From the NCBI GenBank assembly GCA_020846875.1, contig JADLDB010000009.1, forward strand, positions 124,001 through 188,000: 64,000 bases of DNA. Reading direction: 5' to 3'. The position numbers were made by a program, and so were the translations under genes. Under the pieces are notes generated by a model, which saw only the letters and a program-made list of their open reading frames with translations, was not told the DNA's origin and did no database searches. Shown here in pieces: positions 7,419-29,949 of the stretch (position 1 is the first letter of the stretch; every line of letters begins with the position of its first letter). The stretch is from Myxococcales bacterium (GTDB lineage Bacteria > Myxococcota > Myxococcia > Myxococcales > Myxococcaceae).

Positions 7419-10400
7419 ATGCCCCACCTCGACGAGGACCGGCTCCTCCAACTCACCCTCGGCCAACTGGACGACGCGGCGGTGGCCGAGGCCGAGGCTC
7501 ACCTGAAGGACTGCGAGGACTGCGCGCGCCGCAAGGAGCGGCTGTCCTCCATCGTCTTCGCGCAGACGCAGGCCGGCACCACCAGCAAGGACGGCGCGCC
7601 CACCCGGCCCGACTCGCCCTCCGCCACGCCTCCGCTCCACCGCGGCACCACCCTGGGGCGCTACGTCATCCTCGAGCGGTTGGGCGTGGGCGGGATGGGC
7701 GAGGTCTTCGCCGCGTACGATCCCCACCTCGACCGCAAGGTGGCCCTGAAGCTGCTCCGCGGCGGCGCGCTCTCGGCGGAGGAAGGGCGGGCCCGGCTGC
7801 TCCGCGAGGCCCAGGCGATGGCCCGGCTGCAGCACCCCAACGTCGTCACCGTCCACGACGTGGGCGTGCTGGACGAGCGCGTCTTCATCGCCATGGAGTT
7901 CATCGAAGGCGAGACGCTCACCGACTGGCTGCGGGAGGACCGCCCGTGGCAGCAGGTGATCGACGTCTTCCGGCAGGCGGGCGGCGGGCTGGCGGCCGCG
8001 CACCGCGCCGGGCTGGTGCACCGCGACTTCAAGCCCGACAACATCCTCCTCGACAAGGACGGCCGGCCGAAGGTGCTGGACTTCGGGCTGGCCCGGCAGG
8101 CCACCAACACGCCTTCGCCTTCCCCGCCGGAGTTGACCGGCGAGATCCACGACACTCTGGTGGACGCCCCCAGCCTCGGCGCCCGGCTGACGCGCGACGG
8201 CGCGGTGATGGGCACCCCCGGCTACATGGCGCCCGAGCAGATCGCCGGCCTGCCCACCGACGCGCGCAGCGACCAGTTCAGCTTCTGCGTAGCCCTCTAC
8301 GAGTCGCTCTACGGCCAGCGGCCCTTCAGCGGCGCCACCTTGAAGCACCACGCGAAGGAGATCGCCGCCGGACGCCTCCAGCCGCCGCCGTCGAACACCC
8401 AGGTGCCGTCGTGGGTGCTGGACGTGCTCAAGCGGGGCGTGAGCCACCACCCCGAGGCGCGCTTCCCCACCATGGACGCGCTGCTCCTCGCGCTCCGCCC
8501 CCGCTCCGCGCGCACCGCTCGTCGCTCCGCGGGCGCCGCCGCCCTGGTGGTGGTGGCGGCCCTGGGCACCGGCTACGGCCTGTGGACGCAGCGGCGCCTC
8601 AAGGTGTGCGGAGGCCTGGAGAAGCACCTGGAGGGCACCTGGGATCAGGCCCGGCGCGAGCACCTCAAGACGGCCTTCGTCGCCACCGGGCTGCCCTACG
8701 CGCAGGACGCCTGGGCCTCGGTGGAGAAGACGCTGGACGCATGGGCGCTGGAGTGGGTGGCCACCTCCCGCGAGAGCTGCGAGGCGGCCCGGCTGCGCCG
8801 GACGGACAGCGAGGAGCTCTACGAGCTCAAGCGCAGCTGCCTGGACGATCGCCTGCTGCGCTTCCAGGCGCTGGTGACGCTCTTCGACGGGGCCGATCGC
8901 CAGGTGATCTCCAACGCCCCGGTGGCGGCCCGCGCGCTCGACTCGCCGAAGGTGTGCGCCGCCCGCCTCGACCTGGGCCAGCGCACCACCGACGAGAAGG
9001 AGCGGAAGGCCGAGGCGGCCCTGCGCGCGGTGATGGGAGAGGCCCGCGTGCTCTTCGACGCGGGGAAGTACGCCGACGGGCTGAAGAAGCTGCGGCCGGC
9101 GGTCAACAACGACGCGCCCCCCCGGGTCCGCGCCGAAGCCCACCTCCTCCTCGCCCGGCTGGAGACGCGCAACGGCGACGCGAAGCGCGCGCGCGCGGAG
9201 AACCTGCTGGCCGCGGAGCAGGCGCTCAAGGCCGCCGACGCCGCCTTCGAGGCTCGCGCCCTCTCGCACCTCTTCGCCAACGAAGGCTTCGACGACGAGG
9301 GGGAAGGAACCGACGCGGACGCCTGGGGACGCCTGGCCCACGCCGCCGCCGCCCGGGTGCCCGGCGACTGGGAGGTGCAGGTGGAGCTGGCCACCAACGA
9401 CGCGCTGGTGTCGATGAAGCGCAAGCGCCTGGCCTCCGCGCTGGCCGACTTCGAGCGCGCGCTGGAGCTGCAGCAGTCCCGCCTGGGCCCCGAGCACCCC
9501 GATGTGGCGATGACGCTCAACAACCTGGGCGTGGTGCTGGGCCGGCTGGGGCGGCAGGACGAGGCGATCGCCAACTACGAGAAGAGCCTGGCCATTCACC
9601 TCGCCATCGAAGGCCCGGGCCACCCCAACACCGCCACCGCGCAGCACAACCTGGGGGTGCTGCTTCGCGCCCGGGGCCGGTACGCGGAGGCGCGGGAGAA
9701 GCTCGAACAGGCGCTGGCGGTGCGGCGCTCGGCGCTGGGGCCGCGGCACCCGGACACGCTCAACACCCTGCAGGTGCTGGTGAAGGTGTACCTCACCCTC
9801 AAAGAGACGGCGCTGGCCCAGGGCGGCCTGGACGAGCTGCGCGAGTCCCGCCTCATCGTCAACGGCCCGGCGTCCAAGGAGATGCTGCAGGTCGCGGATC
9901 TGGAGTGCCAGCTGTTCCGCGACGGCGGCTTCTGGAAGGAGTCGCGGGCGGCGGCGGATCGAATGCAGGCGCTGGCGAAGACGCTGGGGCTGGACGGCGC
10001 GACGCAGGGAGGCAACGCGTGGCTCAACGTGGGGCTGGCGGCCACCGAGCTGGGACAGTGGGCGGACGCGCGCGCCGCGTTGATGCAGGCCAGCCGCGTC
10101 CGCCTGGCGCTGGGGGCCGACAAGGCCGACGTGGCCGAGGTGGAGGAGGCGCTGGCCGAGCTGGACGTGCGGCAGAAGCACTTCACCGAGGCCCTGGCCC
10201 ACTACGACGTGGCCCGGCAGCTCCGGGAGGCCGGCGCGGGCACCTCCCCGCAGCTGTTGGCGCGGGTGCTGGTGGGGATCGGGCGCTGCCTGCTCGAAGT
10301 GGGCCGCAGCGAAGAGGCGCTGCCGTCCCTCACCAAGGCCGAGCAGCTCTACACGGAGGTGGAGCGCCCCGAGGACGCCGCGCGGGCCCGGGCTCTGTAC

Positions 10401-10553
10401 GGCCAGGCGCTGTGGCTGGCGCGGCCGGATGAGCGCGGGCAGGCGGTGGAGCTGTTCCTCCAGGCGCTGGCCGCGCTGGGCCCGCAGGAGAAGGCGGAGC
10501 TGTCGGCCTGGCTCACCGCGCACGGGGGAGGCGCGCTGGACGCCGGGCGGTGA
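7419..10553 (+). CDS. Ser/Thr protein kinase with zinc-finger-like N-terminus and TPR C-terminus
   Basis: 1044 residues. Residues 4-40 look like an anti-sigma-type zinc finger (H28, C32, C35 in HLKDCEDC). The Hanks kinase domain spans about 81-360: glycine loop LGVGGMGEV, catalytic K111, E130, HRDFKPDN with D203, DFG with D221 and the segment GTPGYMAPEQ. A single membrane helix lies at about 370-389. The remaining 650 extracytoplasmic residues are rich in TPR units, including kinesin-light-chain-type repeats (DVAMTLNNLGVVLGRLGRQDEAI and the next unit, about 690-790). This layout is common in myxobacterial signalling kinases. It stands alone on the plus strand, convergent with another kinase. 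Substrates are unknown. Confidence 0.92.
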   Translation: MPHLDEDRLLQLTLGQLDDAAVAEAEAHLKDCEDCARRKERLSSIVFAQTQAGTTSKDGAPTRPDSPSATPPLHRGTTLGRYVILERLGVGGMGEVFAAYDPHLDRKVALKLLRGGALSAEEGRARLLREAQAMARLQHPNVVTVHDVGVLDERVFIAMEFIEGETLTDWLREDRPWQQVIDVFRQAGGGLAAAHRAGLVHRDFKPDNILLDKDGRPKVLDFGLARQATNTPSPSPPELTGEIHDTLVDAPSLGARLTRDGAVMGTPGYMAPEQIAGLPTDARSDQFSFCVALYESLYGQRPFSGATLKHHAKEIAAGRLQPPPSNTQVPSWVLDVLKRGVSHHPEARFPTMDALLLALRPRSARTARRSAGAAALVVVAALGTGYGLWTQRRLKVCGGLEKHLEGTWDQARREHLKTAFVATGLPYAQDAWASVEKTLDAWALEWVATSRESCEAARLRRTDSEELYELKRSCLDDRLLRFQALVTLFDGADRQVISNAPVAARALDSPKVCAARLDLGQRTTDEKERKAEAALRAVMGEARVLFDAGKYADGLKKLRPAVNNDAPPRVRAEAHLLLARLETRNGDAKRARAENLLAAEQALKAADAAFEARALSHLFANEGFDDEGEGTDADAWGRLAHAAAARVPGDWEVQVELATNDALVSMKRKRLASALADFERALELQQSRLGPEHPDVAMTLNNLGVVLGRLGRQDEAIANYEKSLAIHLAIEGPGHPNTATAQHNLGVLLRARGRYAEAREKLEQALAVRRSALGPRHPDTLNTLQVLVKVYLTLKETALAQGGLDELRESRLIVNGPASKEMLQVADLECQLFRDGGFWKESRAAADRMQALAKTLGLDGATQGGNAWLNVGLAATELGQWADARAALMQASRVRLALGADKADVAEVEEALAELDVRQKHFTEALAHYDVARQLREAGAGTSPQLLARVLVGIGRCLLEVGRSEEALPSLTKAEQLYTEVERPEDAARARALYGQALWLARPDERGQAVELFLQALAALGPQEKAELSAWLTAHGGGALDAGR

Positions 10554-10653: not shown

Positions 10654-12834
10654 TCACGCGCCCGCGCGCGAGGGTCGGCCCGCCAGGAGGGCTTCGAGGA
10701 GCTGCTCGGCGGTGGGGCGCGCGTCGGGGCGCTCGCTCAAGCTGCGCAGCACCAGCCCCGCCACCGCCTGGGGCACCTCGGGCGGCAGCGGCGCCACGGC
10801 AGAGAGCTTTCGGCCGGAGAGCGCGGCAAAGATGGGCGTCTCCGCGTGCGCCGGCCGGCCGGTGAACAGCTCGTAGGCCATCAGCCCCAGCGCGAAGAGA
10901 TCCGACGCCGGGCTGGCGCTGCGCGCGCCGTTCGCGAGCTCGGGCGCCATGTAGGCGGGCGTCCCCATCAGCACGCCCGTGGCCGTCAGTCCTGGCGCGC
11001 CCGCGCGCGGATCCGTCATGTGCGTCGCCGCGTGCCCCTGCACGTCGGGCAGGGCCGGCGAGTCCACGGGGCGTGCCATTCCCGCCGCGCCAGGCACCTC
11101 CCGGCCCGTCCCCTCGGAGGGCGCGCCCAGCCGCGAGATGCCGAAGTCGGAGATCTTCGCCAGCTCGCGGCCCTCAGCTCCGGCGCCGACCAGCACGTTG
11201 CCGGGCTTCAGGTCGCGGTGCACGACGCCCGCCGCGTGGAGCGCGCGCACGCCATCGGTGATCTGCCAGAGCAGCTCGAGCGCCCAGGGGACGTCGCCGA
11301 AGCGGCTGCGCAGGTCCTCCAACGGCCGGCCTTCCACGTACTCCATGACGAGGTAGAGGCGGCCCGAGCCCTGCCCGCCGACGTCTACGACGGTGACGAG
11401 GTGTTCGCTCGCCACGCTGGCGGCGATCTCAGCCTCGCGCGCGAAGCGGGCCCCGGCGTCCGAGTCGATGCGGCCGGACATGATCTTGAGGGCGAAGGTG
11501 CGAGCGTCGCTGAGCCGCTCGACCGCGTGCACCGCGCCCATCGCGCCCTGGCCGAGCAAGCGCAGGACCCGGTAGCGCCCGTCGATCAGCTCGCCGGCCT
11601 CCAGCGCCTGGCGCTCGCTCACCGTGGCGGAGCCCTGCTGCAGGGCGTCGGCCATCTGCCGGGAGCGCTCGGCGATCTGGTGCCGCAGCTCCTGGTTCAG
11701 GGCGTCGATCTCCCGGTTGCGCTCCTCGAGGACGGCCAGCTTCGCGGCGAGCTCCCGGGCGCTCGCCTGCGCGGTCTCGCGCGCCTGCCGGTGCTGGCGC
11801 TCCACCACTGCCACCATCGCCGCGCCGAAGGTGAGCGCGGCGTACGGCACCGTCTGGAAGGGGAGCACCTTGAAGCCCGCCCCGTCGAGGATGTCGGGCA
11901 GCGACACCACCAGCAGCGCCCCGATGCCGAAGAGGAACAGCCAGGCCGAGGGATCCGTCTTCCTCGCCTGGGCGGCCAGCACGACGGCCTGGAGCAAGAA
12001 GGCGACGATGAAGAGTGCGGTCGGCGCGCGCCCGGTGTTGAGGTGGAGGAGCCCGGTGAGGTGGAGCACCCAGGCCACAGCGGCGTAGAGCACGAACAGC
12101 CGCAGTCCCCGGCGCAGCACCCGCCACCGGCCGTCCCCGAAGGTGCCCAGCACGAAGTCCGCGAAGCCGATCGGGTAGAGGGTGGTGGCGAGCTCATGCG
12201 CCACGAAGAGGACGCTCCCCGACACGGGGAAGACGTGGCGCAACTGCCGGGCGTTGAGCGACGCGATGACGCCGATCCCCACCAGGAACAGGCCCAGGCC
12301 GCGGTAGGCCCGCTCGGCGCCGGGGCGGAGGCCCGCCAGCCCCAGCAGCAGGCCCGCGAGCGTCATCATCACGCCCACGGTGAACGGGGCGAGCTCGGTC
12401 TCGAGCACCCGCGTCCAGAGGCGCTGCTCCGAGCCGGCCACCGGTCTTCGGACGGCGGTGCGGGCATCCGCCGTGTTGCGGATCAACACCTGCGTGGGGG
12501 TGCACGGCAGGGGGAGGATCTGGGTATGCCCCCGCAGCTCCGTCTTCTGCCCACACACCCACGCAGCGTCCGCGAAGAGCGCGCTGAGCTGCACCGCCGG
12601 ATCCGGGCCCGGCAGCGCGGGGACCTGAACGCGGAACCAGAGGACCTCGCCGCCGCGCGGCCCCAGCTCGAGCCCCGGCGCCACCTGCCAGGCCGCCTCC
12701 ACCGGCTCTTCGGCCCACTGGTACTCCACCGGACCCAGCTCGATGAGGTCCGCCTGCGACGTGCACGCCGAGAGCGCCAGGAAGGCCAGCCAGAGGCCGC
12801 ACCTCACCACTCCTGGCTGCGCACCCCGCCCCAT
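10654..12834 (-). CDS. 7-TM receptor-like Ser/Thr protein kinase (lipoprotein-type N-terminus)
   Basis: 726 residues. The N-terminus reads as a lipoprotein signal with lipobox LSAC (Cys24). An extracytoplasmic beta-rich domain follows (about 30-148, with WFRVQVPALPG) and then about seven membrane helices (150-345), an arrangement like the 7TMR-DISM sensory module. A coiled coil (about 346-405) leads to a Hanks kinase (420-725): LGQGAMGAV, K450, HRDLKPGN with D541, SDFG with D563 and GTPAYMAPE. A Pro/Ala/Gly insert lies between the DFG and APE segments. The kinase would be cytoplasmic, giving a one-protein transmembrane receptor kinase. It is last in an operon after a rhomboid-TPR, a LolA-like and a beta-barrel gene. 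ATG at 12834 is the chosen start. Confidence 0.88.
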   Translation of the reverse strand: MGRGAQPGVVRCGLWLAFLALSACTSQADLIELGPVEYQWAEEPVEAAWQVAPGLELGPRGGEVLWFRVQVPALPGPDPAVQLSALFADAAWVCGQKTELRGHTQILPLPCTPTQVLIRNTADARTAVRRPVAGSEQRLWTRVLETELAPFTVGVMMTLAGLLLGLAGLRPGAERAYRGLGLFLVGIGVIASLNARQLRHVFPVSGSVLFVAHELATTLYPIGFADFVLGTFGDGRWRVLRRGLRLFVLYAAVAWVLHLTGLLHLNTGRAPTALFIVAFLLQAVVLAAQARKTDPSAWLFLFGIGALLVVSLPDILDGAGFKVLPFQTVPYAALTFGAAMVAVVERQHRQARETAQASARELAAKLAVLEERNREIDALNQELRHQIAERSRQMADALQQGSATVSERQALEAGELIDGRYRVLRLLGQGAMGAVHAVERLSDARTFALKIMSGRIDSDAGARFAREAEIAASVASEHLVTVVDVGGQGSGRLYLVMEYVEGRPLEDLRSRFGDVPWALELLWQITDGVRALHAAGVVHRDLKPGNVLVGAGAEGRELAKISDFGISRLGAPSEGTGREVPGAAGMARPVDSPALPDVQGHAATHMTDPRAGAPGLTATGVLMGTPAYMAPELANGARSASPASDLFALGLMAYELFTGRPAHAETPIFAALSGRKLSAVAPLPPEVPQAVAGLVLRSLSERPDARPTAEQLLEALLAGRPSRAGA

Positions 12835-12883: not shown

Positions 12884-14461
12884 TCACCACAGGTCGTAGC
12901 GCACGCCGGCCAGCACCTTGTCGTTGCGCCCGAAGTAGCCGAACGGCGTCCACAGCTGGCCCACGAAGAACTCCGCGCCGGCGAACACCTTGAAGCCGGT
13001 GAAGGCCTCCCAGCTCACCCGCGGCCCCAGCGCCAGGCTCCACTGGATCGGATCCAGCCCCACGCGCAGCGTCACCTCCAGCTTCTTGTCGAAGAAGCCG
13101 TAGCCGACGGTGGCCAGGAGGAGGTGGAAGAAGGCGGTGCGCGCCGCTCCCACCGCCGTGGCCGGCTCGATCAGGAAGAGCTGCTCCTGCGCCTTCACGT
13201 CGAACACCGCCATGCCCAGGTAGCCCACCGTGTAGAGCAAGGGCGAGTCCGACGCCTGGCTGTAGCCCAGGACCCAGGTGAGCGCCGCCTTGTCCAGCGG
13301 CGTGAAGTCGAGGTCGAAGTAGGTCTGCCGCGGGGTGAAGGTGACGTCCACGTCCAGCTGCCCCGGCCCGAGCAGCGCCGAGCCTTCCAGCGAGAAGAGG
13401 TGCGTGCGCTTGTAGTTGCCGACGTAGAGGTCCTCGCCTGCCTGGAAGCGGTTCAGCACCGAGGCGGCCAGCGCCGGATCCGCCGGCTCGCCCCTCGCTT
13501 GCGCCGCCATCAACTGCTGCAGCTCCGGATCCACCACCACCCGCGGCAGCTTCTCGTTCATCCACACCCACGAGGCGCCCAGCTTCACCCGGCCGTGGCG
13601 CACCACCCGCAACGCCACGTCTCCCGCGAAGGGCGGCGGCCGCTGCGTCTCCAGCACCCGGTCCTGCAGGTAGTCCTCCACGCTGGGATCGACGCGCGTG
13701 TTGTCGAAGGCCGGCCCCAGCCCGGGCTGCAAGAGCGCCTCGTCCTGCCCGAAGACGAAGTAGCGGTGCGGGGTGAAGAACGGCGCGTACGCGGCGAGCC
13801 ACGTCACCTTGCCGAGGTCTCCCTGCGCGCGGATGGCGAAGACGGGCAGGAGCGTGTCCTCCACTTCGCCGGAGATGAGGCTCTCTCGCAGGTCCCGGGG
13901 GTTGAGCGCGTCGGCGGGCGCCAGCGCCGGGTTGGCCCCCAGGGGGATGCGCTGGTTGCCCACCCGCAGGTCCACCTTCGAGGTGTAGAGGTCCACGAAG
14001 GCGTCCCCCAGCATCGCCTCGTAGAAGCCCTTGGCGCGATCGAAGTCGCGCTGGGTGACGACGCGGACCTGCGCGCGGCCCTCCAGCACCAGGCGCAGGT
14101 GCGGGTTCAGCTTCACGTCCACGCCCAGCAAGGCCTTGAGGCGCCCTTCCGCCACGTTCTCCGCCATCGGCGCGCCGCGCTCGGAGTCGAAGGTGGTGTC
14201 CACCGCGCCATGGCCCCACGCCCAGCCGTAGACGCGCGCCGTGGGCGAGGTGTCCTTCGTGGAGAACGCTTCGACCACCGGGGCGGCCGGGCTCGTTCCC
14301 GCGTCCGGCGGGTCGGCGACCGGCTCGAAGGAGTCGATGGCCATCGCGCCCGACGCGGCGCCGGCGTCGGCGGCTTTCCCCGCATCCACCGGAGCAGAGA
14401 ACGGCTCGATGGCCATCTGCGCAAGCGCGGGGCCGGCGAGGCTCAGCCACGCCACCCACAC
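12884..14461 (-). CDS. outer-membrane beta-barrel protein, DUF1302-like
   Basis: 525 residues with a short signal peptide ending ALAQ. After it come two similar stretches (MAIEPFSAPVDAG and MAIDSFEPVADPPDAG), then an amphipathic beta-strand pattern to a C-terminal aromatic residue (GVRYDLW), typical of outer-membrane barrels. Blocks such as VDLRVGNQRIPLGANPALAPADALNPRDLRES resemble DUF1302-type proteins. The start is uncertain: GTG at 14461 fits the signal peptide but lacks a close ribosome-binding site, and a purine-rich AGGGGAAG sits about 30 bases upstream. It lies 73 bases after a LolA-like gene. DUF1302 and LolA-like proteins often accompany an RND-type lipid exporter, but none is in this window. 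Cargo unknown. Confidence 0.65.
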   Translation of the reverse strand: MWVAWLSLAGPALAQMAIEPFSAPVDAGKAADAGAASGAMAIDSFEPVADPPDAGTSPAAPVVEAFSTKDTSPTARVYGWAWGHGAVDTTFDSERGAPMAENVAEGRLKALLGVDVKLNPHLRLVLEGRAQVRVVTQRDFDRAKGFYEAMLGDAFVDLYTSKVDLRVGNQRIPLGANPALAPADALNPRDLRESLISGEVEDTLLPVFAIRAQGDLGKVTWLAAYAPFFTPHRYFVFGQDEALLQPGLGPAFDNTRVDPSVEDYLQDRVLETQRPPPFAGDVALRVVRHGRVKLGASWVWMNEKLPRVVVDPELQQLMAAQARGEPADPALAASVLNRFQAGEDLYVGNYKRTHLFSLEGSALLGPGQLDVDVTFTPRQTYFDLDFTPLDKAALTWVLGYSQASDSPLLYTVGYLGMAVFDVKAQEQLFLIEPATAVGAARTAFFHLLLATVGYGFFDKKLEVTLRVGLDPIQWSLALGPRVSWEAFTGFKVFAGAEFFVGQLWTPFGYFGRNDKVLAGVRYDLW

Positions 14462-14534: not shown

Positions 14535-15302
14535 TCAGCCGCGCTCCAGCGCCCGCTCGGTGAACGCGTCGTCGCCCAGCGTGGCGTCTTCCAGCTTGAG
14601 CACCGTCATCTGCGTCTTCGAGCCCGCCTGCAGGTTCTCCATCACCGACTCGGCCGCCAGCACCCGATCCTTGTGTGACTTGAGCTTCAGCGTCCGGTAC
14701 CGCTTGAGGGGCTTGCCCGCCTTGTCCTGGTACTCCACCTTCATCGGCACGTACGTCTGTTGATCGATGAACATCGTCACCTCGCCGTAGGGGGAGCTGT
14801 CGTCCCCCTTCCCCTTGAGGACGAAGCACGGCCGGCCCTCCACCTTGTCGTCGGGCAGGCGCTTCAAGTCCTCGTCGCGCGCGCCGCTGGAGGTGATGTC
14901 CGCGTAGGCGAAGTCGGTGTCCATGAAGGCCTTGCCGCGATCGCTCTTGGCCACCTTCCGCACCCGCTTCAGCTTCGGCAGGTACAAGGACACGTCGTCG
15001 CCCTCGCCCGGCGCGCCCTCGACGGTCAGCACCGCCACGCCCGACACGCCGGCCGGCGCGGTGAAGCGGGCCAGCGCGTGGCTCTTCCCGTTGATGGTGC
15101 GCGAGGTGGTGGACAGCACCTGCTCCTTCGTCTTGCCGTCCGCGCCCGTCGTCGCCAGCTTGAGCTCGGCGGCCAGGCCCACCAGGTTGAGCGCCCCGCG
15201 CTCGCGGGACTTCTTCGAGATCTCCTGCGCGCTCTCTTCCGCCCAGGCGTTCGCCGCGAGCAGCGCCGACAGGGCCCACAGCCAGCACGTCCGTCTCGTC
15301 AT
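14535..15302 (-). CDS. outer membrane lipoprotein-sorting (LolA-like) periplasmic protein
   Basis: 255 residues with a clean signal peptide ending AWAEES. The mature part has the half-barrel pattern of LolA/LolB-fold proteins of the COG2834 type: HALARFTAPAGVSGVAVLTV, then LYLPKLKRVRKVAKSDRGKAFMDTDFAYADI, CFVLKGKGDD and MFIDQQTYVPMKVEYQDKAG. The motif from SDRGKAFMDTDF onward is diagnostic of this subgroup, which probably shuttles a lipid or lipoprotein across the periplasm rather than being the housekeeping LolA. It begins 12 bases after the rhomboid gene stop and precedes the beta-barrel gene, so the three form an envelope operon with the receptor kinase. Confidence 0.8.
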   Translation of the reverse strand: MTRRTCWLWALSALLAANAWAEESAQEISKKSRERGALNLVGLAAELKLATTGADGKTKEQVLSTTSRTINGKSHALARFTAPAGVSGVAVLTVEGAPGEGDDVSLYLPKLKRVRKVAKSDRGKAFMDTDFAYADITSSGARDEDLKRLPDDKVEGRPCFVLKGKGDDSSPYGEVTMFIDQQTYVPMKVEYQDKAGKPLKRYRTLKLKSHKDRVLAAESVMENLQAGSKTQMTVLKLEDATLGDDAFTERALERG

Positions 15303-15314
15303 GGGGCCCTCGTC

Positions 15315-17078
15315 CTACTCAAGTTCCGGCAGCGTCGCGCGCAACTTCGACGCCGCCGCCTTGAGCCGCTCGTCCTGGGGGGCGCCGGCCATCGCCTTCT
15401 CCAGCCGCTCCAGCGCCCGACGGGGGTGCCCCAGGGCCAATTCACAGCGGGCCGAGGCCTCCAGGGCCGGCGGATCGTCCGGCCCGTAGGCCAGCGCCGC
15501 CGCCGTGGCCTCGCAGCCGCGCTCCACCTCGCCCGCCGCCAGCCAGGCCCGCGCCAGCAGCACCCGCGAGGCGAGGGAAGAAGGAGCGCCCCGCACGGCC
15601 GCCGTCAGCGCGTCCGCCGCCGGCAGCGCCTCGCCCTGCTCCAGGAGCGCCTGGCCCAGCCGCGCCAGGGCCTGCGGCGAGTTGGGGAAGAGCAGCGCCT
15701 CGGCCCGCACCACCCGCAGCGCCCGGGGCTCGACGAAGCGCACGCCGGCCATCATCTGCTCCACCACCTGCCCGTACTTCGGCAGGTCCGCCGGCCAGAG
15801 GAACACCAGCTGGTACACCCAGGTGCCTCGCGGGACGAACCAGGCCGCCACGCGGGTGTCGCCCCCCGTCTCTTCGATGGTGGCGCGCACCCGCACCGCG
15901 TCGCGATCGCCCACCGACACCGTGTCCACCTTCTCGTGGCTCACCTTCAGCACGTCCGGCCCCAGCGCCCGGGGAGACAGCCGCTCGTCCACGAAGCGCT
16001 GCGCCTGGGCCGACGCGTCGGCGCCCTCGGCCATCTCCACCGCCTCCGCCGCGAAGGACGCGCGCCCCAGCCCCGACAGGCCGTTGAACCACGCCACGGA
16101 TCCCAGCGGATCCGCCCCCCGCACCCAGCCCCGCGGCACCGGCACCGACAGGCCGAAGGCGTCGTCGCGCTCGGGCTTCAAGACCGGCAGGGCGCTGCCG
16201 AAGAAGAGCTGCTGCCCGAAGAAGATCACCGCCAGGATGCCCAGCGACGGCGCCGCGCGCAGCGCCGGCTCCCACCAGAAGCGCCGCGCGTCGGTCAGCA
16301 GCCTCGGCCGCATGAAGGCGCCCGTCACCAGGCCCGCCAGGAGCCCGCCGATGTGCGCCCAGTTGTCCACCCCCTGCGAGGTGAGGCCGATCAGCAAGAG
16401 CCCCAGCACCGTGGGGATCGCCGCGTCGCCCAGGATGGAGCGGTACCGCGACGGCAACAGGCTGCGGTACTTGAGCCCGAAGGCCACCAGGCCCCCCAGG
16501 CAGCCGAACACCATGCCCGACGCGCCGATGGTGACGGCGTCGTTGAGCCACAGCGACGCGCCCATGGTGGCGATGCCGGTGAAGACGAGCAGCCAGACGT
16601 AGTCCAGCGTCCGGTAGGTGTTCTCCAGCGCGCCGCCGACGTTGAAGAGCACGAACATGTTGAGGCCCAGGTGCAGCGCGTCCCGGTGCAGGAAGTTGGC
16701 GGTGAAGAGGCGCCACAGTTCGCCCAGGTCCCTCACCAGCGGGCCCACCTTCCCGCCGTAGCGCACCATGTCGTCCAGCTCGAGCTGCGAGCCCCGCGCG
16801 GTGGCCAGGAAGACGGCCACGTTCAAGAGGATGAGGCCCGACGTCATCCACGGGAAGCGCGTCAGCGAGAAGGCCCGCGAGAAGTGCGCCAGCTTCGGCC
16901 GGTGCAGCCGCTTGTAGATCTCCAGCTCGCACGCCGGCACGAAGACCTCGCCCGTCACCGCCGGCAGCCGCACCAGGCTCTGCGGGGACACCTCCCCCCG
17001 CCGCACCCGTGCCTCGAACTCCGGCAGATCCAGGTGCTCGTCGCCTTCGTCCGTCCTCAGTGTGACGTGCCCGGCCAT
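15315..17078 (-). CDS. rhomboid intramembrane serine protease fused to TPR region
   Basis: 587 residues from ATG at 17078; an in-frame TTG at 17111 would add 11 residues but is less likely. The first 60 residues (HLDLPEFEARVRRGEVSPQSLVRL) resemble a GYF_2-like adaptor. The rhomboid core spans about 70-260: LHRDALHLGLNMFVLFNVGG, the GASG motif with catalytic Ser187, and NWAHIGG with catalytic His242. Six membrane segments are visible. Residues about 290-420 form a soluble domain of unknown type. The last 150 residues contain TPR-like helices (NSPQALARLGQALLEQGEALPAADAL). Both catalytic residues are present, so it should be an active site-specific membrane protease. It is first in a four-gene operon ending in a receptor kinase. 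Confidence 0.88.
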   Translation of the reverse strand: MAGHVTLRTDEGDEHLDLPEFEARVRRGEVSPQSLVRLPAVTGEVFVPACELEIYKRLHRPKLAHFSRAFSLTRFPWMTSGLILLNVAVFLATARGSQLELDDMVRYGGKVGPLVRDLGELWRLFTANFLHRDALHLGLNMFVLFNVGGALENTYRTLDYVWLLVFTGIATMGASLWLNDAVTIGASGMVFGCLGGLVAFGLKYRSLLPSRYRSILGDAAIPTVLGLLLIGLTSQGVDNWAHIGGLLAGLVTGAFMRPRLLTDARRFWWEPALRAAPSLGILAVIFFGQQLFFGSALPVLKPERDDAFGLSVPVPRGWVRGADPLGSVAWFNGLSGLGRASFAAEAVEMAEGADASAQAQRFVDERLSPRALGPDVLKVSHEKVDTVSVGDRDAVRVRATIEETGGDTRVAAWFVPRGTWVYQLVFLWPADLPKYGQVVEQMMAGVRFVEPRALRVVRAEALLFPNSPQALARLGQALLEQGEALPAADALTAAVRGAPSSLASRVLLARAWLAAGEVERGCEATAAALAYGPDDPPALEASARCELALGHPRRALERLEKAMAGAPQDERLKAAASKLRATLPELE

Positions 17079-17193
17079 TCGCTCGATGCCAGCGTAGCTG
17101 CACTTGCTCAAGGTATTTCAAGGGGCTGTACCCGGCGCCTGCCCGTTGGGCCTTCGCCTCACCGTACAGTGGTGGTAGAAAGTCGATCGCGTG

Positions 17194-18960
17194 ATGAAGC
17201 TGATCATCGAAGACGACGAGGGGCGCAAGACGGTCGTCCCCTTCGCCCGGGAAGAGATCACCATCGGTCGGCAGGAGGGGAACACCATCCGCCTGACCGA
17301 GCGCAACGTGTCGCGCCGCCACGCGCGGCTGCTCCGGCAGAACGGACACGTGCTGATCGAGGATCTGGGCAGCTACAACGGCATCCGCGTCAACGGCGAT
17401 CGCATCTCCGGGCAGGTGCAGGTCAACGACGGCGATCTGATCCAGATCGGCGACTACGATCTGGCGCTGCAGAATGAGCAGGTGGCGCCCACCGTGCCGC
17501 TGGAGCAGGCGCCGCGCGGCTCTGGCCAGCACAAGCAGCTCGACGGCCCCAAGAAGGCCGACGCTTCCGCCACCGTGCCGCTGCTGCCCGCGGTGGACGC
17601 GCCCCTGGCGCAGGACGACGACGTACAGGAAGCCAGCTCCGACGACGTGTCCGACCTCGGCCCGTCGCCCGAGGTGCCGAAGAACCAGGCCACCGCGGTC
17701 ATCCGCCTCGACCAGGTGGAAGGCAACACCAAGAAGCGCCCGGTGGTGGACATCGAGCCCGCCGACGCGCCCCGCCTGGTGGTGATGAACACCGACTTCG
17801 CCGGGAAGGACTTCGCCTGCACCCGGTCCGAGATGCGCATCGGGCGCACCGACGACAACGACGTCGCGCTCGATCACCGCTCGCTCTCGCGCACCCACTG
17901 CAAGCTGGTCCGTGAGGACAACGGCGAGTGGCGGGTCATCGACATGCAGTCGGCGAACGGGCTGATGGTGAACGGCGAGCCCTACGCCCAGGTCACCTTG
18001 AGGCCCGGCGACGTGCTCGAGTTGGGGCACGTGAAGTTCAAGTTCGTCGGCCCCAACGACGACGCGGCCCTGCCTGCTCCCACCACCTCCAGCATCACCC
18101 AGGAGACCGGCGCGACCGGCTCGAAGGCCCCGTTGATCGCCGTGGTGGTGGCCGGCCTGGTGATCGTCCTCGGTGGCGGCGGCTACGTCTTCTGGAAGAG
18201 CCGGCAGACGGTGGCCCCACCCCCGCCCAGGGTGGTCGAGCGCCCCCCGAAGACGGACCCCACCAGGCCTCCTCCGAAGGAAGATCCGGCGACGGCGAAG
18301 GCGACCATCGAGAAGAAGCTGGCCGACGCGAAGGTGGCGATCGCCACCCTGGAGTGGAACAAGGCCGAGGTGCTGCTCAACGACTGCAAGCTGGACGGCC
18401 AGGTGCACCCCGAGGCGCGCACCCTGCTCTCGCAGATGGACGGAGAGAAGGGCGTGAAGCTGGCGCTCGAGGCGGCGGCGGTGGCGCTTGAGGCCGGCGA
18501 CCTGGAGAAGGCCAAGACGCAGCTGGACTCGGCGCGCGACACCAAGCTGCTGCGCGAGCGCTACGACGATCTCGAGGCGCGCCGGGCCGAGGCGGTGAAG
18601 CTGAAGCTGGCCCACAAGTCCCCGGACAAGCCTCCTGAGAAGACGCCGGTGAAGCCGCCCGAGCAGCCCAGGGCCGTGGCCGAGGCGCAGGCCCTGCTGG
18701 ACGAGGCCACCACCCTGTCCAGGAGCAAGAACTACGAGGCCGCCACCATCCGCCTGGAGCGCTGCATCAAGCTCGCGCCCACGTTCCACCCCTGCTACCG
18801 GGTGCTGGGCAGCACCTACGCCCGGCTGGCGGCGCGCGACTCCAGCGCCTCGGACATGGACAAGGCCCGGAAGTACTACGAGCGGTACCTGGAGGTCGCC
18901 CCACCCGACGACGAGTACGTCCCGAAGGTGCGACAGATTCTCGAGCAGGCGCCCAAGTAA
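17194..18960 (+). CDS. double FHA-domain, single-TM, TPR protein
   Basis: 588 residues from ATG 17194; a GTG sits immediately before. FHA domain 1 covers about residues 20-90 with the phosphothreonine-binding residues in ITIGRQEGNTIRL, NVSRRHA and YNGIRVNG. FHA domain 2 covers about 195-275 with MRIGRTDDNDV, SLSRTHCKL and SANGLMVNG. Thr/Val-Pro-Leu motifs in the linker are possible phosphosites. One membrane helix (about 310-335) is followed by a Pro-rich segment, a helical region and TPR-like repeats ending RKYYERYLEVAPPDDEYV. It would bind phosphothreonine proteins in the cytoplasm and present TPRs on the other side. The REC-XRE regulator follows 26 bases later. Ser/Thr kinases 7-10 kb away are natural but unproven partners. 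Confidence 0.88.
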   Translation: MKLIIEDDEGRKTVVPFAREEITIGRQEGNTIRLTERNVSRRHARLLRQNGHVLIEDLGSYNGIRVNGDRISGQVQVNDGDLIQIGDYDLALQNEQVAPTVPLEQAPRGSGQHKQLDGPKKADASATVPLLPAVDAPLAQDDDVQEASSDDVSDLGPSPEVPKNQATAVIRLDQVEGNTKKRPVVDIEPADAPRLVVMNTDFAGKDFACTRSEMRIGRTDDNDVALDHRSLSRTHCKLVREDNGEWRVIDMQSANGLMVNGEPYAQVTLRPGDVLELGHVKFKFVGPNDDAALPAPTTSSITQETGATGSKAPLIAVVVAGLVIVLGGGGYVFWKSRQTVAPPPPRVVERPPKTDPTRPPPKEDPATAKATIEKKLADAKVAIATLEWNKAEVLLNDCKLDGQVHPEARTLLSQMDGEKGVKLALEAAAVALEAGDLEKAKTQLDSARDTKLLRERYDDLEARRAEAVKLKLAHKSPDKPPEKTPVKPPEQPRAVAEAQALLDEATTLSRSKNYEAATIRLERCIKLAPTFHPCYRVLGSTYARLAARDSSASDMDKARKYYERYLEVAPPDDEYVPKVRQILEQAPK

Positions 18961-18986: not shown

Positions 18987-19592
18987 GTGCGCGGCTCGCA
19001 GCAGATCCGCATCCTGGTGGTGGACGACGAGCCGGACAACGCCGACCTGTTCAAGGCGCTGCTGGGCCGTGAAGGCTTCGCCGTCACTTCGTTGAGCGAT
19101 CCCACGAAGGTGGTGGGCACGCTCAAGGAAGGCAACTTCCACCTGGTGATCCTGGACATGATGATGCCGCAGCGGAGCGGCACCGAGGTGCTGGAGCAGA
19201 TCCGCAGCCTCGACGACGACATCGCGGTCATCATCGCCACCGGCTTCCCCACGGTGGAGACGGCGGTGGCCAGCCTGAAGCTGGCGGCCAGCGACTACGT
19301 GAAGAAGCCGGTCGATCCGCCGGTGTTCATCGACACGGTGAAGCGCACCCTGGAGAAGAAGGGCATCACCCGCGATCCCGAGGCCGAGCTGCACCGCGCC
19401 ATCGGCCGGTACATCCGCGAGGGGCGCACCCGCCAGAGCCTCACCTTGAAGCAGCTCGCGCGACGCACCGGCCTGTCGGTGTCGCTGCTCTCTCAGATCG
19501 AGCGCGCCGAGTCGTCGGCGTCCATCTCCTCGCTCTACCGGATCGCCAGCGCCCTGCGCGTGCGGATGAGCGAGCTGTTCGCCGAGGTCTGA
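18987..19592 (+). CDS. response regulator, receiver plus XRE-type HTH
   Basis: 201 residues from GTG 18987 with GGGGGAGGAA as ribosome-binding site. The receiver domain (about 8-122) has the acidic pocket D13/D14, phospho-acceptor D57 in VILDMMMP, T85 and K107 in VKKP, all intact. The C-terminal part (about 138-195) is an XRE/Cro-type helix-turn-helix (LTLKQLARRTGLSVSLLSQIERAESSASISSL) of the kind seen in cupin-linked repressors. Receivers are normally joined to OmpR, NarL or Fis output domains, so REC-XRE is a less common combination. No histidine kinase gene is adjacent; the phospho-donor is unknown. Probably a DNA-binding regulator. Confidence 0.9.
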   Translation: MRGSQQIRILVVDDEPDNADLFKALLGREGFAVTSLSDPTKVVGTLKEGNFHLVILDMMMPQRSGTEVLEQIRSLDDDIAVIIATGFPTVETAVASLKLAASDYVKKPVDPPVFIDTVKRTLEKKGITRDPEAELHRAIGRYIREGRTRQSLTLKQLARRTGLSVSLLSQIERAESSASISSLYRIASALRVRMSELFAEV

Positions 19593-25777: not shown

Positions 25778-26428
25778 TCACGCCGAGGCGATGTGCCGGA
25801 TGACCTCGAACAAGGCCCCGCTGACGATGCCGATGGGCCGCGAGAGGAAGAAGCCGCCCATGGCGATGACCGCGAAGAGGAAGAAGGGGGCGATGCGGGC
25901 GAACTGCTCCCAGGCGTGCCGGTGCTGGTAGCCCACGGCGCGCTCGAGGATCCGGCTCCCGTCGAGGGGGGGAATGGGCAGCAGGTTGAACAGGAAGAGC
26001 GCGACGTTGAGCTGAATGCCGTAGAGCAGCAGCGCCCAGATGCCCTGCTGCTGGGCGACCGTCTGCGGCGAGAGGCGCAGGAGCAGCCCCAGGGTGACCG
26101 CGCAGAAGACGGCCAGCAGCAGGTTGCTCAAGGGCCCGGCCGCCGCGGTGATCGCCATGCCGGTCTTCATCGTCCACCTACGGTTGAAGCGCACCGGGTT
26201 GACCGGCACCGGCTTGGCCCACCCGAACGGCACCCCCAGCAGTGGCAGCAAAAGCGTGCCGATGGGATCGATGTGCACGATGGGGTTCAAGGTGAGCCGC
26301 CCTTCCCGCAGGGCGGTGTCGTCACCCAGCTTCCAGGCGCTCCACGCGTGGGCCCACTCGTGCAGGGAGAGCGAGAGGATCATCGGCACCAGGTACATCA
26401 CGCGCTCGGCCAGGGAGAGCGAGTTCAT
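25778..26428 (-). CDS. site-2 protease-like M50 family zinc metalloprotease
   Basis: 216 residues, nearly all membrane-embedded. LSLHEWAHAWSAWKLGD carries the HExxH zinc motif (HEWAH), and FNLLPIPPLDGSRIL carries the third ligand Asp in the N-x-x-P-x-x-x-LDG motif. This is the compact YwhC-like class without a PDZ domain. Its ATG overlaps the stop of the sigma factor gene (ATGA), so it is translated together with an RpoH-type sigma factor. Such proteases cut membrane-bound regulators in some systems; here the target is unknown. Followed by the hairpin at 25682-25712. Confidence 0.88.
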   Translation of the reverse strand: MNSLSLAERVMYLVPMILSLSLHEWAHAWSAWKLGDDTALREGRLTLNPIVHIDPIGTLLLPLLGVPFGWAKPVPVNPVRFNRRWTMKTGMAITAAAGPLSNLLLAVFCAVTLGLLLRLSPQTVAQQQGIWALLLYGIQLNVALFLFNLLPIPPLDGSRILERAVGYQHRHAWEQFARIAPFFLFAVIAMGGFFLSRPIGIVSGALFEVIRHIASA

Positions 26429-27651
26429 CGCCCACGCTCGCTCTCTGCGACCAGCTCGAAGTCGGGGATTTCCTGCCGCATGTACTTCCTCATCCGCTCG
26501 ATCAGCGCGGCTTCGATCTGCCGGGCCCGCTCGCGCGACACCCCATAGTGCGCGCCGATGTCCTGCAGCGTCATCGGCTCGTCAGAGGTGAGCCGCTTCT
26601 CGAAGATGTAGCGCTCCTTCTCGTTCAGGTCCTTCGCGAAGTCCGCCAGCTTGTCGCGGAACATCGCCCGCAGCTCGGCGTTCCCCAGCGCCTCGTCGGC
26701 CCCGGGCGTTCCGGTAGGCAGCAGCCGATCGGCCCTCGTCTGCCGCTCGTCCTCCGAGCCCGGTACCGGCGCGTCCAGGGACAGCTCGTCGTGGCCCAGG
26801 CGCTGGTCCATCTCCACCACGTCCTGCTCGGTGACGTTGAGCCGCTCCGCCAGCAGCTTCGGCGTCACCTCCACGCCCTGGGCGGCCAGCCGGTCCTGCT
26901 CCTGGCGCAGCTTGAAGAAGAGCTTCCGCTGGGCCTCGGTGGTGCCCAGCTTCACCATCTTCCAGTTGTCCATGATGTACCGGAGGATGTACGCGCGGAT
27001 CCACCAGGCCGCGTAGCTGGCCAGCTTCACCCCGCGCTCCGGGTCGAACTTCTTCACCGCCTGCATCAGGCCGATGTTGCCTTCCTGGATCAGATCCAGC
27101 AGCGACATCGGGTTGCGGTGGTACTCGTGGGCCAGCTTCACCACCAGCCGCAGGTTGGACGCCACCAGCTTGTACGCGGCCTTCACGTCGCCCGTGTCGC
27201 GGTAGCGGCGCGCCAGCTCCGTCTCCGCCTCCCGGGTGAGCAGCGCGTGCCTGGTCACCTCGTACATGTAGGCGGCCAGCGGATCGGCCTTCGCCATCCG
27301 CGACTCTTTGGGCACCGGCGCCAGGGCGGCCGTCTCGACGTCCGGCTCCACCTCTTCCAGCTCTTCCGGCGCCGGCTCGGCGTCGAGGGGCCGCGGCTCA
27401 CCTTCCTCGTGGCCGGCGGTCTCCACCTCCTCGGCCTCGTCAGCGTCCTTCGCCTCCCTCGCGTCCTCGGACCCGCCTGATCGCTTCGCCCCCCTCGCCT
27501 TCCGGGGCGGCTCGGCCGTCGCCACCTTCACCTTGCGGGGCTTCTTCGGGACCGGCTCCTCGGCGGAGGGCGAGGCCTCGACGAACTCGGCGTCGACGAT
27601 CTCCTCGCTCCTGGCGGGCGGTGTCGGCGGCCGCTTCCTGCGCGAAGCCAT
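26425..27651 (-). CDS. RNA polymerase sigma factor, RpoH (sigma-32) type with long N-terminal extension
   Basis: 408 residues from ATG 27651. Residues 1-120 are a low-complexity Lys/Glu/Pro/Ala extension absent from usual RpoH proteins (about 280-300 residues). The sigma core follows: region 1.2 (DPLAAYMYEV), region 2 (NLRLVVKLAHEYHRNPMSLLDLIQEGNIGLMQAVKKFDPERGVKLASYAAWWIRAYI split across 2.1-2.4), the RpoH-box-like segment QRKLFFKLR, and region 4.2 (MTLQDIGAHYGVSRERARQIE). These mark it as a sigma-32 homologue. Myxobacteria carry several such paralogues (SigB and SigC of Myxococcus xanthus act in development), so heat-shock duty is not certain. The stop overlaps the M50 protease start. Confidence 0.9.
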   Translation of the reverse strand: MASRRKRPPTPPARSEEIVDAEFVEASPSAEEPVPKKPRKVKVATAEPPRKARGAKRSGGSEDAREAKDADEAEEVETAGHEEGEPRPLDAEPAPEELEEVEPDVETAALAPVPKESRMAKADPLAAYMYEVTRHALLTREAETELARRYRDTGDVKAAYKLVASNLRLVVKLAHEYHRNPMSLLDLIQEGNIGLMQAVKKFDPERGVKLASYAAWWIRAYILRYIMDNWKMVKLGTTEAQRKLFFKLRQEQDRLAAQGVEVTPKLLAERLNVTEQDVVEMDQRLGHDELSLDAPVPGSEDERQTRADRLLPTGTPGADEALGNAELRAMFRDKLADFAKDLNEKERYIFEKRLTSDEPMTLQDIGAHYGVSRERARQIEAALIERMRKYMRQEIPDFELVAESERGR

Positions 27652-27747
27652 GGCAGACCCATGCTTAGCGCACAACGCGGCCCGCGCCACCCGATCCGTC
27701 GGCGCTGGCGTGCGGTCGTCATTGCCCGCGAGGTGGCCAGGGGATAC

Positions 27748-29949
27748 ATGCCGTGGCCACCCATGAACCCGTCGTCCCAACCGACCGAGCTCCCCACTGG
27801 CAGCGCCGACAGGCCCCAGGAATACGTCGCCGACGCGAGCTTCGACGATCTGTCTCTCTCCCCCGAGCTGCGCAAGGCCATCGCCGAGCGCGGCTACGTC
27901 AGCCCCACCCCCGTGCAGGCCCGCGCCTACCGCCCCGCGAAGGACGGGAAGGACCTGATCGTCCGCTCCAAGACGGGCACCGGGAAGACGGCCGCCTTCG
28001 GCATGCCGATCATCGAGCGGATCCCCATGGGCACCCGCGAGGTGAAGGCCCTGGTGCTCTGCCCCACCCGCGAGCTCGCGCTGCAGGTGACGCAGGAGCT
28101 CGCCACCCTGGTGAAGTACCGGGACATCGCGGTGACGGCCATCTACGGCGGCGCGTCGATGAAGCAGCAGGAAGACGCCCTGCGCGCGGGCAGCGCGATC
28201 ATCGTGGGCACGCCGGGCCGGGTGTACGATCACATTCGCCGCGGCAACCTGAAGCTGGAGCGCTGCAGCCACGCGGTGCTGGACGAAGCCGACGAGATGC
28301 TCAACCAGGGCTTCTACGAGGAAGTCACCCGCATCCTCGACTGCCTCCCGAAGGACCGGCAGGTGCTGCTGTTCTCCGCCACCGTGCCCGAGGACATCCA
28401 GCGCCTCATCGCCCGCTACACCACCGACGCGCAGACGCTGTTGCTCTCGGGCGACGTGTACACCGTCGAGCACATCAAGCACGTCCGCTACGACGTGTCC
28501 GACGCCTACCCCAAGCCGCGGAACCTGCTCTACGTGCTGGAGATGCACGACCCGGACAACGCGATCATCTTCTGCAACACCCGCGACGACACCGAGCTGG
28601 TCACCGCGGTGCTCAACCGCAACGGCCTCGACGCGGAGGTGCTCAACGGCGACCTCCCGCAGAAGGAGCGCGAGCGGGTGATGGGCCGGGTGAAGCGGGG
28701 CGAATTGGCCTTCATGGTGGCCACCGATCTCGCCGCGCGGGGCATCGACATCTCCGACCTGGGCCACGTCATCAACTACTCGCTGCCGGAGGATCCCGCG
28801 GTGTACCTGCACCGCGTCGGCCGCACCGGGCGCATCGGCAAGTCCGGCACCGCGCTCAACCTGGTGTCCGGGCGCGAGCTGGGCACGCTGTCGGCGCTCG
28901 AGAAGAAGTACGGGGTGAAGTTCGAGCAGCGCCCCATGCCCACGCCCGAGGAGGCGGCCACGCTGTGGACGGAGCGGCACGTGCGGCAGCTCAAGGACGC
29001 GGCGCAGGGCTCCATCTACGAAGGCTTCCTTGGGCTGGCGCAGAGCCTCAAGGTGCGCCCCGACTCGGAAGATCTGATCGCCTTCATGCTCCGGTACTTC
29101 TTCACCCACCGCCGCATGGAGCGCGCCCAGCACCACCCCGAAGAGGCGCCGCGCGAGGCCCGCGAGCCGCGGGAAGGCCGCGAGGGCCGCCGGGGCGAGC
29201 GCAGCGGCCGCGGGGAGCGGGACCGGGGTGAGCGCGGAGGCCGCCGCGAGCGCGAGGGTCGCCGAGAGGGCCGAGAGCGCCGCGAGGGGCGTGAGGGCGA
29301 GGGGCGTGAGCGTCGCGAGGAGCGGCCGCGAGACACCCCGCGAGACACCGAGGCGACCGTCCCCACCGGGGCGCCCGCCGTCCCTCCTTCCGCCCGAGCG
29401 GCTCCCCGGGCGTCGAGCGACCGCGACCTCTTCCTCCAGCACCAGGCCAGCGAGGCCGTCACCGCGCTGACGGGTACGCCCCGCGCCGAGCGAGCGCCGG
29501 AGAAGAAGCCCCAGGCCGCAAAGCCCGAGGGCGGCAAGAAGCGCCTGTCCGACCGCGAGCTGTTCGAGCTGATGCAGGCCGGCAAGCCCCTTCCGCCCAT
29601 CGGCGATCCGACGGACACCACCGATGACTCGGCCGCCGACACCGAGCCCCGCCGGGAAGGCCGGGGCGATCGCCGCGAACGGCGCCGCCGCGACGAAGCG
29701 CCCGTGGACGTCGCTCCCGGCAACGTGCGCATGTGGGTCAACCTGGGCCGCGCCGACCGGCTGGACGAGGCGGGCGTGTCCTCTACGCTGGAGTCCTTGG
29801 GCGCCCCCTCGGGCAAGGTGGCAAGGACGGAGCTGCGCGGCACCTTCGCCTACGTCCACGTCGCCGAGGCCGACGCCCCCGCCTTCGAGGCGCTCGCCGG
29901 CAAGCAGCACGGCGAGAAGGCCGTGAAGATCGAGCGCGCCCGGCGTTGA
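27748..29949 (+). CDS. DEAD-box ATP-dependent RNA helicase with Arg/Gly/Glu-rich tail and DbpA-like C-domain
   Basis: 733 residues from ATG 27748, preceded by AGGGGA; another ATG at 27763 lacks such a site. All core motifs are present: Q motif (PTPVQ), SKTGTGKT, PTRELALQ, GTPGR, DEAD (VLDEADEM), SAT, ARGID and HRVGRTGR. The helicase core ends near residue 400. Residues about 455-530 are an Arg/Glu/Gly repeat-like tract (GREGRRGERSGRGERDR and similar). The last 75 residues (APGNVRMWVNLGRADRLDEA to the end) look like the DbpA/CsdA RNA-binding domain. Likely roles are ribosome assembly or RNA decay, often cold-induced. It is divergent from the sigma factor gene, with about 96 bases between. Confidence 0.93.
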   Translation: MPWPPMNPSSQPTELPTGSADRPQEYVADASFDDLSLSPELRKAIAERGYVSPTPVQARAYRPAKDGKDLIVRSKTGTGKTAAFGMPIIERIPMGTREVKALVLCPTRELALQVTQELATLVKYRDIAVTAIYGGASMKQQEDALRAGSAIIVGTPGRVYDHIRRGNLKLERCSHAVLDEADEMLNQGFYEEVTRILDCLPKDRQVLLFSATVPEDIQRLIARYTTDAQTLLLSGDVYTVEHIKHVRYDVSDAYPKPRNLLYVLEMHDPDNAIIFCNTRDDTELVTAVLNRNGLDAEVLNGDLPQKERERVMGRVKRGELAFMVATDLAARGIDISDLGHVINYSLPEDPAVYLHRVGRTGRIGKSGTALNLVSGRELGTLSALEKKYGVKFEQRPMPTPEEAATLWTERHVRQLKDAAQGSIYEGFLGLAQSLKVRPDSEDLIAFMLRYFFTHRRMERAQHHPEEAPREAREPREGREGRRGERSGRGERDRGERGGRREREGRREGRERREGREGEGRERREERPRDTPRDTEATVPTGAPAVPPSARAAPRASSDRDLFLQHQASEAVTALTGTPRAERAPEKKPQAAKPEGGKKRLSDRELFELMQAGKPLPPIGDPTDTTDDSAADTEPRREGRGDRRERRRRDEAPVDVAPGNVRMWVNLGRADRLDEAGVSSTLESLGAPSGKVARTELRGTFAYVHVAEADAPAFEALAGKQHGEKAVKIERARR

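Follow-up and report, generated by a model that had tools for sequence, protein, structure and literature searches.

A predicted seven-helix receptor-type Ser/Thr kinase from a Myxococcales bacterium and its 7TMR-DISM-like relatives

The membrane kinases PknA, PknB and StkP work through trans-phosphorylation within dimers, and what most bacterial Ser/Thr kinases respond to is, to our knowledge, not known. Receptors of the 7TMR-DISM type are built of an extracytoplasmic domain, a seven-helix membrane domain of the PF07695 type and a cytoplasmic output, as presented in the accessible part of PMC6107284. In the S-helix paper, S/T/Y kinases are named in the legend of a domain graph (PMC1592074, in the portion available).

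The gene considered here lies on the minus strand of a 64,000-nucleotide stretch of Myxococcales DNA, hereafter the window, and a sequence-only reading had described its product as a 7TM receptor-type Ser/Thr kinase. This description is borne out by profiles showing a sensor of the 7TMR-DISM type joined to a Ser/Thr kinase. The protein is of a known kind, a 7TMR-DISM-like receptor, in a variant form with a Ser/Thr-kinase output. A literature search over titles and abstract beginnings returned nothing on a 7TMR-DISM Ser/Thr kinase, an earlier mention being possible; at that depth, it also brought up no characterised identical architecture, the finding that had been named as telling against the reading.

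Gene and domain organisation

The GC content by codon position (0.76/0.51/0.95) is as expected for a genuine gene, and the codon-bias rule prefers the 726-aa minus frame over an opposing plus-strand ORF of 854 aa. According to ORF coordinates and Pfam domains, the kinase gene starts 49 bases beyond a DUF1302-type gene (12884-14461, minus strand), upstream of which a LolA-like gene (14535-15302) and a rhomboid-TPR gene (15315-17111) follow on the same strand with intergenic gaps of 73 and 12 bases; the kinase gene may be the last member of an operon. A promoter scan gave no promoter-like sites, and two terminator-like sites were observed against 1.5 in shuffles. The LolA-like and DUF1302-type genes, a possible outer-membrane lipid export pair that could share an operon with the kinase, have no counterpart in the ten relative loci compared. 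Elsewhere in the window, another Ser/Thr kinase, this one bearing TPR repeats (7419-10553, plus strand), is convergent with the 7TM kinase and falls outside its clade. In a 1161-aa ORF at 26425-29910 (minus strand), the sigma-70 regions are confined to the last quarter (residues 876-1142) and codon bias prefers the plus strand in the upstream part, so that the actual sigma gene is likely to be far shorter than the ORF.

Table 1. Features of the receptor-kinase gene and its predicted product
Feature	Residues	Position in window	Strand	Basis
Gene of 726-aa 7TM receptor Ser/Thr kinase, from ATG at 12834 to stop at 10654, stop codon included		10654..12834	-	ORF, Pfam, codon statistics
Signal peptide	1-23	12766..12834	-	hydropathy, sequence
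Cys of lipobox LSAC, putative lipidation site	24	12763..12765	-	sequence; Cys position in clade N-termini
Extracytoplasmic domain, no Pfam family	25-150	12385..12762	-	Pfam, profile matches, alignment
Seven-helix membrane domain, 7TMR-DISM_7TM-like	151-344	11803..12384	-	Pfam, hydropathy, profile
Helical linker / coiled coil	345-405	11620..11802	-	four-protein alignment
Hanks-type Ser/Thr kinase domain	419-715	10690..11580	-	PF00069; nearest structures
Activation-segment insertion of about 44 residues compared with PknA	569-612	10999..11130	-	alignment with PknA
Activation-loop Thr-Ala-Thr, aligned with the PknA VTQTG stretch	617-619	10978..10986	-	alignment

The sequence-only reading had placed an extracytoplasmic beta domain behind the signal peptide. 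A domain of about 125 residues does stand there, but it could not be assigned to any Pfam family, and the domain search proposed for 7TMR-DISMED2 (PF07696) found no match either. This outer domain loosely shares a W-x-x-RWGD-type motif with the N-termini of other 7TM receptors, and profile matches running through it, together with a loose alignment, suggest a loose kinship with them.

Regarding the membrane region, the expected seven helices or so were recovered in two steps. Hydropathy calls six of them in the protein itself, and the uncalled one (around residues 207-232) is supplied by calls at the aligned position in the homologues L083, L084 and L085. The count of seven is a sum over this four-protein alignment, in which the own protein and the three homologues show six, six, six and five called helices, respectively, and no single protein shows all seven. 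A single-sequence AlphaFold2 model has seven helices within residues 136-399, at a mean pLDDT of 42.3 that is too low to count as evidence. The proposed search for a 7TM module returned 7TMR-DISM_7TM (PF07695) with scores straddling the cut-off of 29 bits: 26.2 bits by hmmscan (residues 153-342, E 9e-6) and 29.2 bits, above it, in a six-frame search. By hmmscan, L083 passes the cut-off (29.3 bits) and L084 and L085 stay under it (20.3 and 25.9 bits), L085 reaching 29.6 bits, over the cut-off, in another PF07695 genome search. In Pfam, no non-sensory family takes the N-terminal half, an assignment that had been named as contrary to a receptor.

The coiled coil announced between membrane region and kinase corresponds to a conserved linker, nine residues of which (E375, L379, N380, E382, L383, R384, Q386, R390 and S391) are identical in all four aligned proteins. 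The cytoplasmic signalling output expected of a 7TMR-DISM receptor after its membrane domain is present as a Pkinase match (PF00069, 133.8 bits by hmmscan). It was rightly described as a complete Hanks kinase, with its G-loop, VAIK-type Lys (K450), HRDLKPGN, DFG and APE motifs all found, and it is, as judged from these motifs, catalytically complete. The PASTA kinase model NF033483 scores 167.9 bits, below its cut-off of 450, and over the kinase part only. The spacing from DFG to GTPxYxxPE is 61 residues here and ranges from 23 to 120 among the 14 of 18 7TM kinases (own included) in which it is measurable by pattern. Over these 18, motif patterns find HRD and DFG in all, the G-loop in 17, a VAIK-type Lys in 15 and TxT/S in 13, the misses being pattern counts rather than case-by-case judgements (G107:C123, for instance, reads LTAAG).

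Relatives, distribution and neighbourhood

The survey of this domain combination, which had been recommended earlier, retrieved at least 18 loci in 12 genomes where a seven-helix or 7TM-DISM region precedes a visible Ser/Thr kinase. The output held to be less common is therefore uncommon yet recurrent. The number is a lower bound that covers the PF07695 matches read; the others, mostly from genera g23 and g26, with part of those of G187 and the matches past the end of the listing, may include further 7TM-kinases. Eight loci make up the own sensor clade (the own locus, G035:C29, G005:C205, G001:C94, G107:C123, G107:C79, G107:C725 and G018:C274), two form group B (G132:C13 and G130:C13), and group C consists of G185:C95, the sole carrier of DISMED2 (55 bits) among the Pfam-scanned 7TM-kinases. 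The remaining seven belong to Polyangium sp. 15x6 (one) and to two Myxococcales MAGs (three each). Within the own clade, G018:C274 is absent from the PF07695 list and was placed by profile (54 bits) and hydropathy, and in G107:C123 the reading frame is broken close to the start, the PF07695 score being 18.7 bits. At a further locus, G005:C851, the sensor is present and the contig ends before the kinase. In L200 (Polyangium sp. 15x6) and L222, a GAF domain lies between 7TM and kinase, L200 also having HAMP.

These loci were reached by several searches. The sensor half alone, used as query, matched in four of 60 genomes, namely the own one and three relatives, each match continuing into a kinase; homologues of the same layout are 37-40% identical. 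A profile of four sensors found matches in 47 of the 195 phylum-set genomes, many of them through receptors with other outputs or through the linker alone, and PF07695 found matches in 83 of the 195. Among the 78 rows read (one a repeat), six carry a kinase motif; one of these, G159:C65, has a kinase and no PF07695 and was excluded from the count, and G107:C79 and G018:C274 are two further 7TM-kinase loci beyond the six. PF07695 ORFs of 700-800 aa in genera g23 and g26 were likewise rejected as instances of the same architecture, since the one scanned with Pfam (L124) is an MCPsignal receptor and 12 rows show an MCP-like motif. In the full-length search of named genomes, no match among the 80 listed loci starts before query residue 343; that search therefore reached kinases and not the sensor. 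The 44 genomes chosen from these loci, at least one of which duplicates a phylum-set genome (G210 = G076, the coordinates being identical), contain 29 PF07695 matches in nine genomes. Six of these have a kinase motif, all six being over both Pfam cut-offs, and G206:C36 is the seventh. In a 149-genome sample of the phylum of G207, which we take to be a Bryobacterales MAG of the phylum Acidobacteriota, 30 genomes have a match, and none of the 30 matches examined by motif, out of the 46 listed, shows a kinase. This probable receptor is a member of a small, patchily distributed family in myxobacteria-like bacteria. Its own genome holds 222 kinase matches, possibly several per gene, which together with the relatives in named Myxococcota (Polyangium) suggests a myxobacterium.

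Comparison of the 21 window ORFs with ten relative loci (3 to 20 kb) revealed no conserved neighbourhood, the sole matches being kinases and one FHA protein; eight further loci were scanned by motif alone, a scan that missed a sigma54 activator found by Pfam in L189. An FHA-sigma54 activator lies immediately downstream of the kinase in G005, on the same strand, with its FHA match about 120 bases past the kinase stop, and another lies beyond the L219 kinase in G222, on the other strand; G107:C123 is adjoined by a sigma54 activator of the response-regulator type. The FHA-sigma54 neighbours are suggestive as output partners, yet this adjacency at two loci may be due to chance because both genomes are rich in the two domains, with 107 and 59 FHA matches and 89 and 52 activator matches. 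In the window itself, the gene at 17191-18960 (plus strand), beyond the rhomboid gene, encodes a protein matching FHA (PF00498) in two stretches and is followed by an ORF at 18987-19592 (plus strand) whose start resembles, by eye, a response-regulator receiver.

Kinase and sensor lineages

Seventeen of the 18 kinases, one of which belongs to Polyangium sp. 15x6, form one clade, with support of 100/99 against 30 controls and 100/100 against 42. The set of 42 comprises 14 loci from the full-length search, 27 other kinase matches and the TPR kinase of the window. Among them are the top-scoring non-7TM kinases from the same genomes, with all 12 listed non-7TM matches of at least 113.9 bits, whose non-7TM status derives from the absence of a PF07695 match for seven of G222 and from hydropathy for five, and the addition of the high-scoring G222 matches left the clade intact. 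The kinase of G185:C95 stands outside the clade in both trees. In a smaller earlier tree of 16 kinases, a single clade of all was not rejected (p 0.79), so that the separate origin of G185:C95 rests mainly on its sensor. Against the own kinase, clade members score 123.7 to 646.9 bits and non-members up to 143.2 bits. Five genera of the same family supplied 11 more genomes, in each of which up to 150 candidates were scored; the top match there reaches 114.6 bits, less than any clade member. Given this limit on candidates and the non-member scores of up to 143.2 bits, the clade is likely, rather than proven, to be absent from these genomes. Among the kinases examined, this lineage occurs only in 7TM receptors.

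The sensors behave differently. In the best 7TM tree, the own sensor clade, counted with nine members, is one group with a support of 95 (90 and 75 in earlier trees, as eight rows), but the 18 kinase-clade sensors (the 17 and G005:C851) fall in four groups and are interspersed with 7TM receptors having histidine-kinase or chemotaxis outputs. A single group for these 18 was rejected (AU p = 0.0035) on a tree with a weak backbone. In an earlier tree, the pairwise unions were all rejected as well (own clade A with B, p = 0.008; A with C, p = 1.3e-5; B with C, p = 0.008), and in another one starred branches required at least three changes over 17 labelled rows, group C included. In the last 7TM tree, the starred branches by themselves force just one origin. 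These results are to be read with the composition of the trees in mind. The AU-tested set was defined by the kinase tree, after the 7TM trees had already been inspected. Matches of fewer than 120 residues, loci shorter than 3200 bases lacking coordinates, three long-branch rows and two near-identical MCP rows were left out, and the output labels HK, GGDEF, MCP and 'unk' are motif patterns except where Pfam was scanned. Since the sensors of the kinase clade are not one group and lie amid other outputs, these trees suggest that one kinase lineage was joined to several 7TM sensors. The exchange of outputs was tested and is hinted at, without being settled.

Alternative readings and proposed mechanism

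We consider it likely that the protein is a transmembrane Ser/Thr receptor kinase of the 7TMR-DISM type, working as proposed below, and that its kinase lineage has been joined to 7TM sensors of at least two lineages. A quite improbable alternative is that the seven helices are a passive anchor or transporter-like domain that merely localises a constitutive kinase. The weak Pfam 7TM score, the outer domain in which Pfam identifies no ligand domain, and the divergence of the N-terminal half, which is 27-32% identical to the first three homologues, would agree with this. Yet the same 7TM type carries HisKA/HATPase, MCPsignal, Guanylate_cyc and GGDEF-motif outputs elsewhere, which is the pattern of a sensor, and the linker residues beyond TM7 are invariant in four of four proteins. 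Somewhat less doubtful, while still on the unlikely side, is a single fusion of the kinase lineage to a 7TM sensor, the apparent scatter of the sensors then arising in the tree as an artefact, through rapid change of the membrane helices. The single kinase clade, the weak 7TM backbone and the one origin forced by starred branches fit such a history. It is opposed by the AU rejection and by the grouping of the B sensors with five receptors of G185 (HK by motif in four cases), supported at 99 and 97, albeit at only 90 in the last tree.

A further alternative concerns Cys24, which would be incidental, the signal peptide being cut by signal peptidase I or left uncut and no lipid attached. The lipobox claimed by the sequence-only reading is directly legible as a signal peptide ending in LSAC. 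A Cys closes the hydrophobic stretch in all eight readable N-termini of the own sensor clade despite divergent flanks, though only three of the eight fit the strict lipobox pattern. Over the whole set, 14 of the 18 readable N-termini have such a Cys at the end of the signal peptide, many of them departing from the canonical form: 8/8 in the own clade, 2/2 in B, 4/7 in Polyangium sp. 15x6 and the two Myxococcales MAGs, and 0/1 in C, the four without it being L200, L211, L219 and G185:C95. This count includes G005:C851, whose kinase is not visible, excludes G107:C725, whose start is off the contig, takes the start of G107:C123 from another frame, and relies on judgement by eye for G018:C274 and G206:C36. 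AxA-type ends are seen instead in those chemotaxis-type relatives whose signal peptide is readable; in three of them a script had flagged a Cys, which was judged by eye to sit mid-helix and discounted. The loose motif and the four exceptions favour an incidental Cys, but its constancy in the own clade and the AxA ends of the relatives make this unlikely. The lipobox before a polytopic protein, pointed out earlier as odd, is thus present and is not unique, as a Cys also ends the signal peptide in several G185 receptors of the histidine-kinase type, in one of G012 and in the cyclase receptor L215. Among these receptors, L148, L149, L152, L153 and L154 of G185 have lipobox-like N-termini, L154 by eye, and four carry a histidine-kinase motif; L215, whose N-terminus is also lipobox-like, combines 7TM-DISM with a cyclase output of the adenylate/guanylate type.

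For the preferred reading, that of a receptor kinase, the following course can be proposed. After export, the N-terminus would be trimmed and lipidated at Cys24, and lipid and membrane domain would together hold the small outer domain against the inner membrane at both ends. A ligand bound by the outer domain or within the bundle of seven helices would, in a dimer, displace TM7 together with the uninterrupted coiled coil, whereupon the two C-terminal kinase domains would trans-phosphorylate each other's TxT activation loops and then phosphorylate threonines of cytoplasmic targets, for which FHA-domain proteins are the probable readers. A more tentative extension is a lipid-tethered family of 7TM Ser/Thr kinases, in which a portable kinase output may have been swapped among 7TM sensors, taking the place of outputs of the histidine-kinase or chemotaxis type, while an N-terminal lipid and TM1 would clamp the sensor domain to the membrane from either end. 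A 7TM receptor fused to a Ser/Thr kinase would offer a direct and testable route from ligand to Ser/Thr phosphorylation, and a seven-helix protein with a lipobox would, if lipidated, represent an unusual use of lipoprotein processing.

Compared with the 7TMR-DISM receptors RetS, LadS, NicD and RgsP, as far as these are covered by the accessible part of PMC6107284, the layout is alike, whereas the output is a Hanks-type Ser/Thr kinase here and a histidine kinase or GGDEF/EAL there; the own protein has, besides, no DISMED2 match and an N-terminal lipobox. The close non-kinase kin of the sensor half, the 7TM chemotaxis-type receptors of related genomes (G157:C11 and relatives), have the 7TM region and the loose N-terminal motif in common with it, but end in an MCPsignal output (by Pfam in the one scanned, by motif in 12 rows) and start with AxA-type signal peptides. 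As in the S-helix signalling linkers, in the portion of PMC1592074 available, a coiled coil joins receptor to output. Finally, the kinase domain has its nearest solved structures by sequence in the PASTA-type kinases PknA, StkP and PknB, but the order is reversed, with sensor and membrane domain preceding the kinase and seven helices instead of one. Among 15 non-7TM kinases of related genomes, read from stretches of a few kb, hydropathy places a helix only after the kinase in 11, on both sides in one and nowhere in three.
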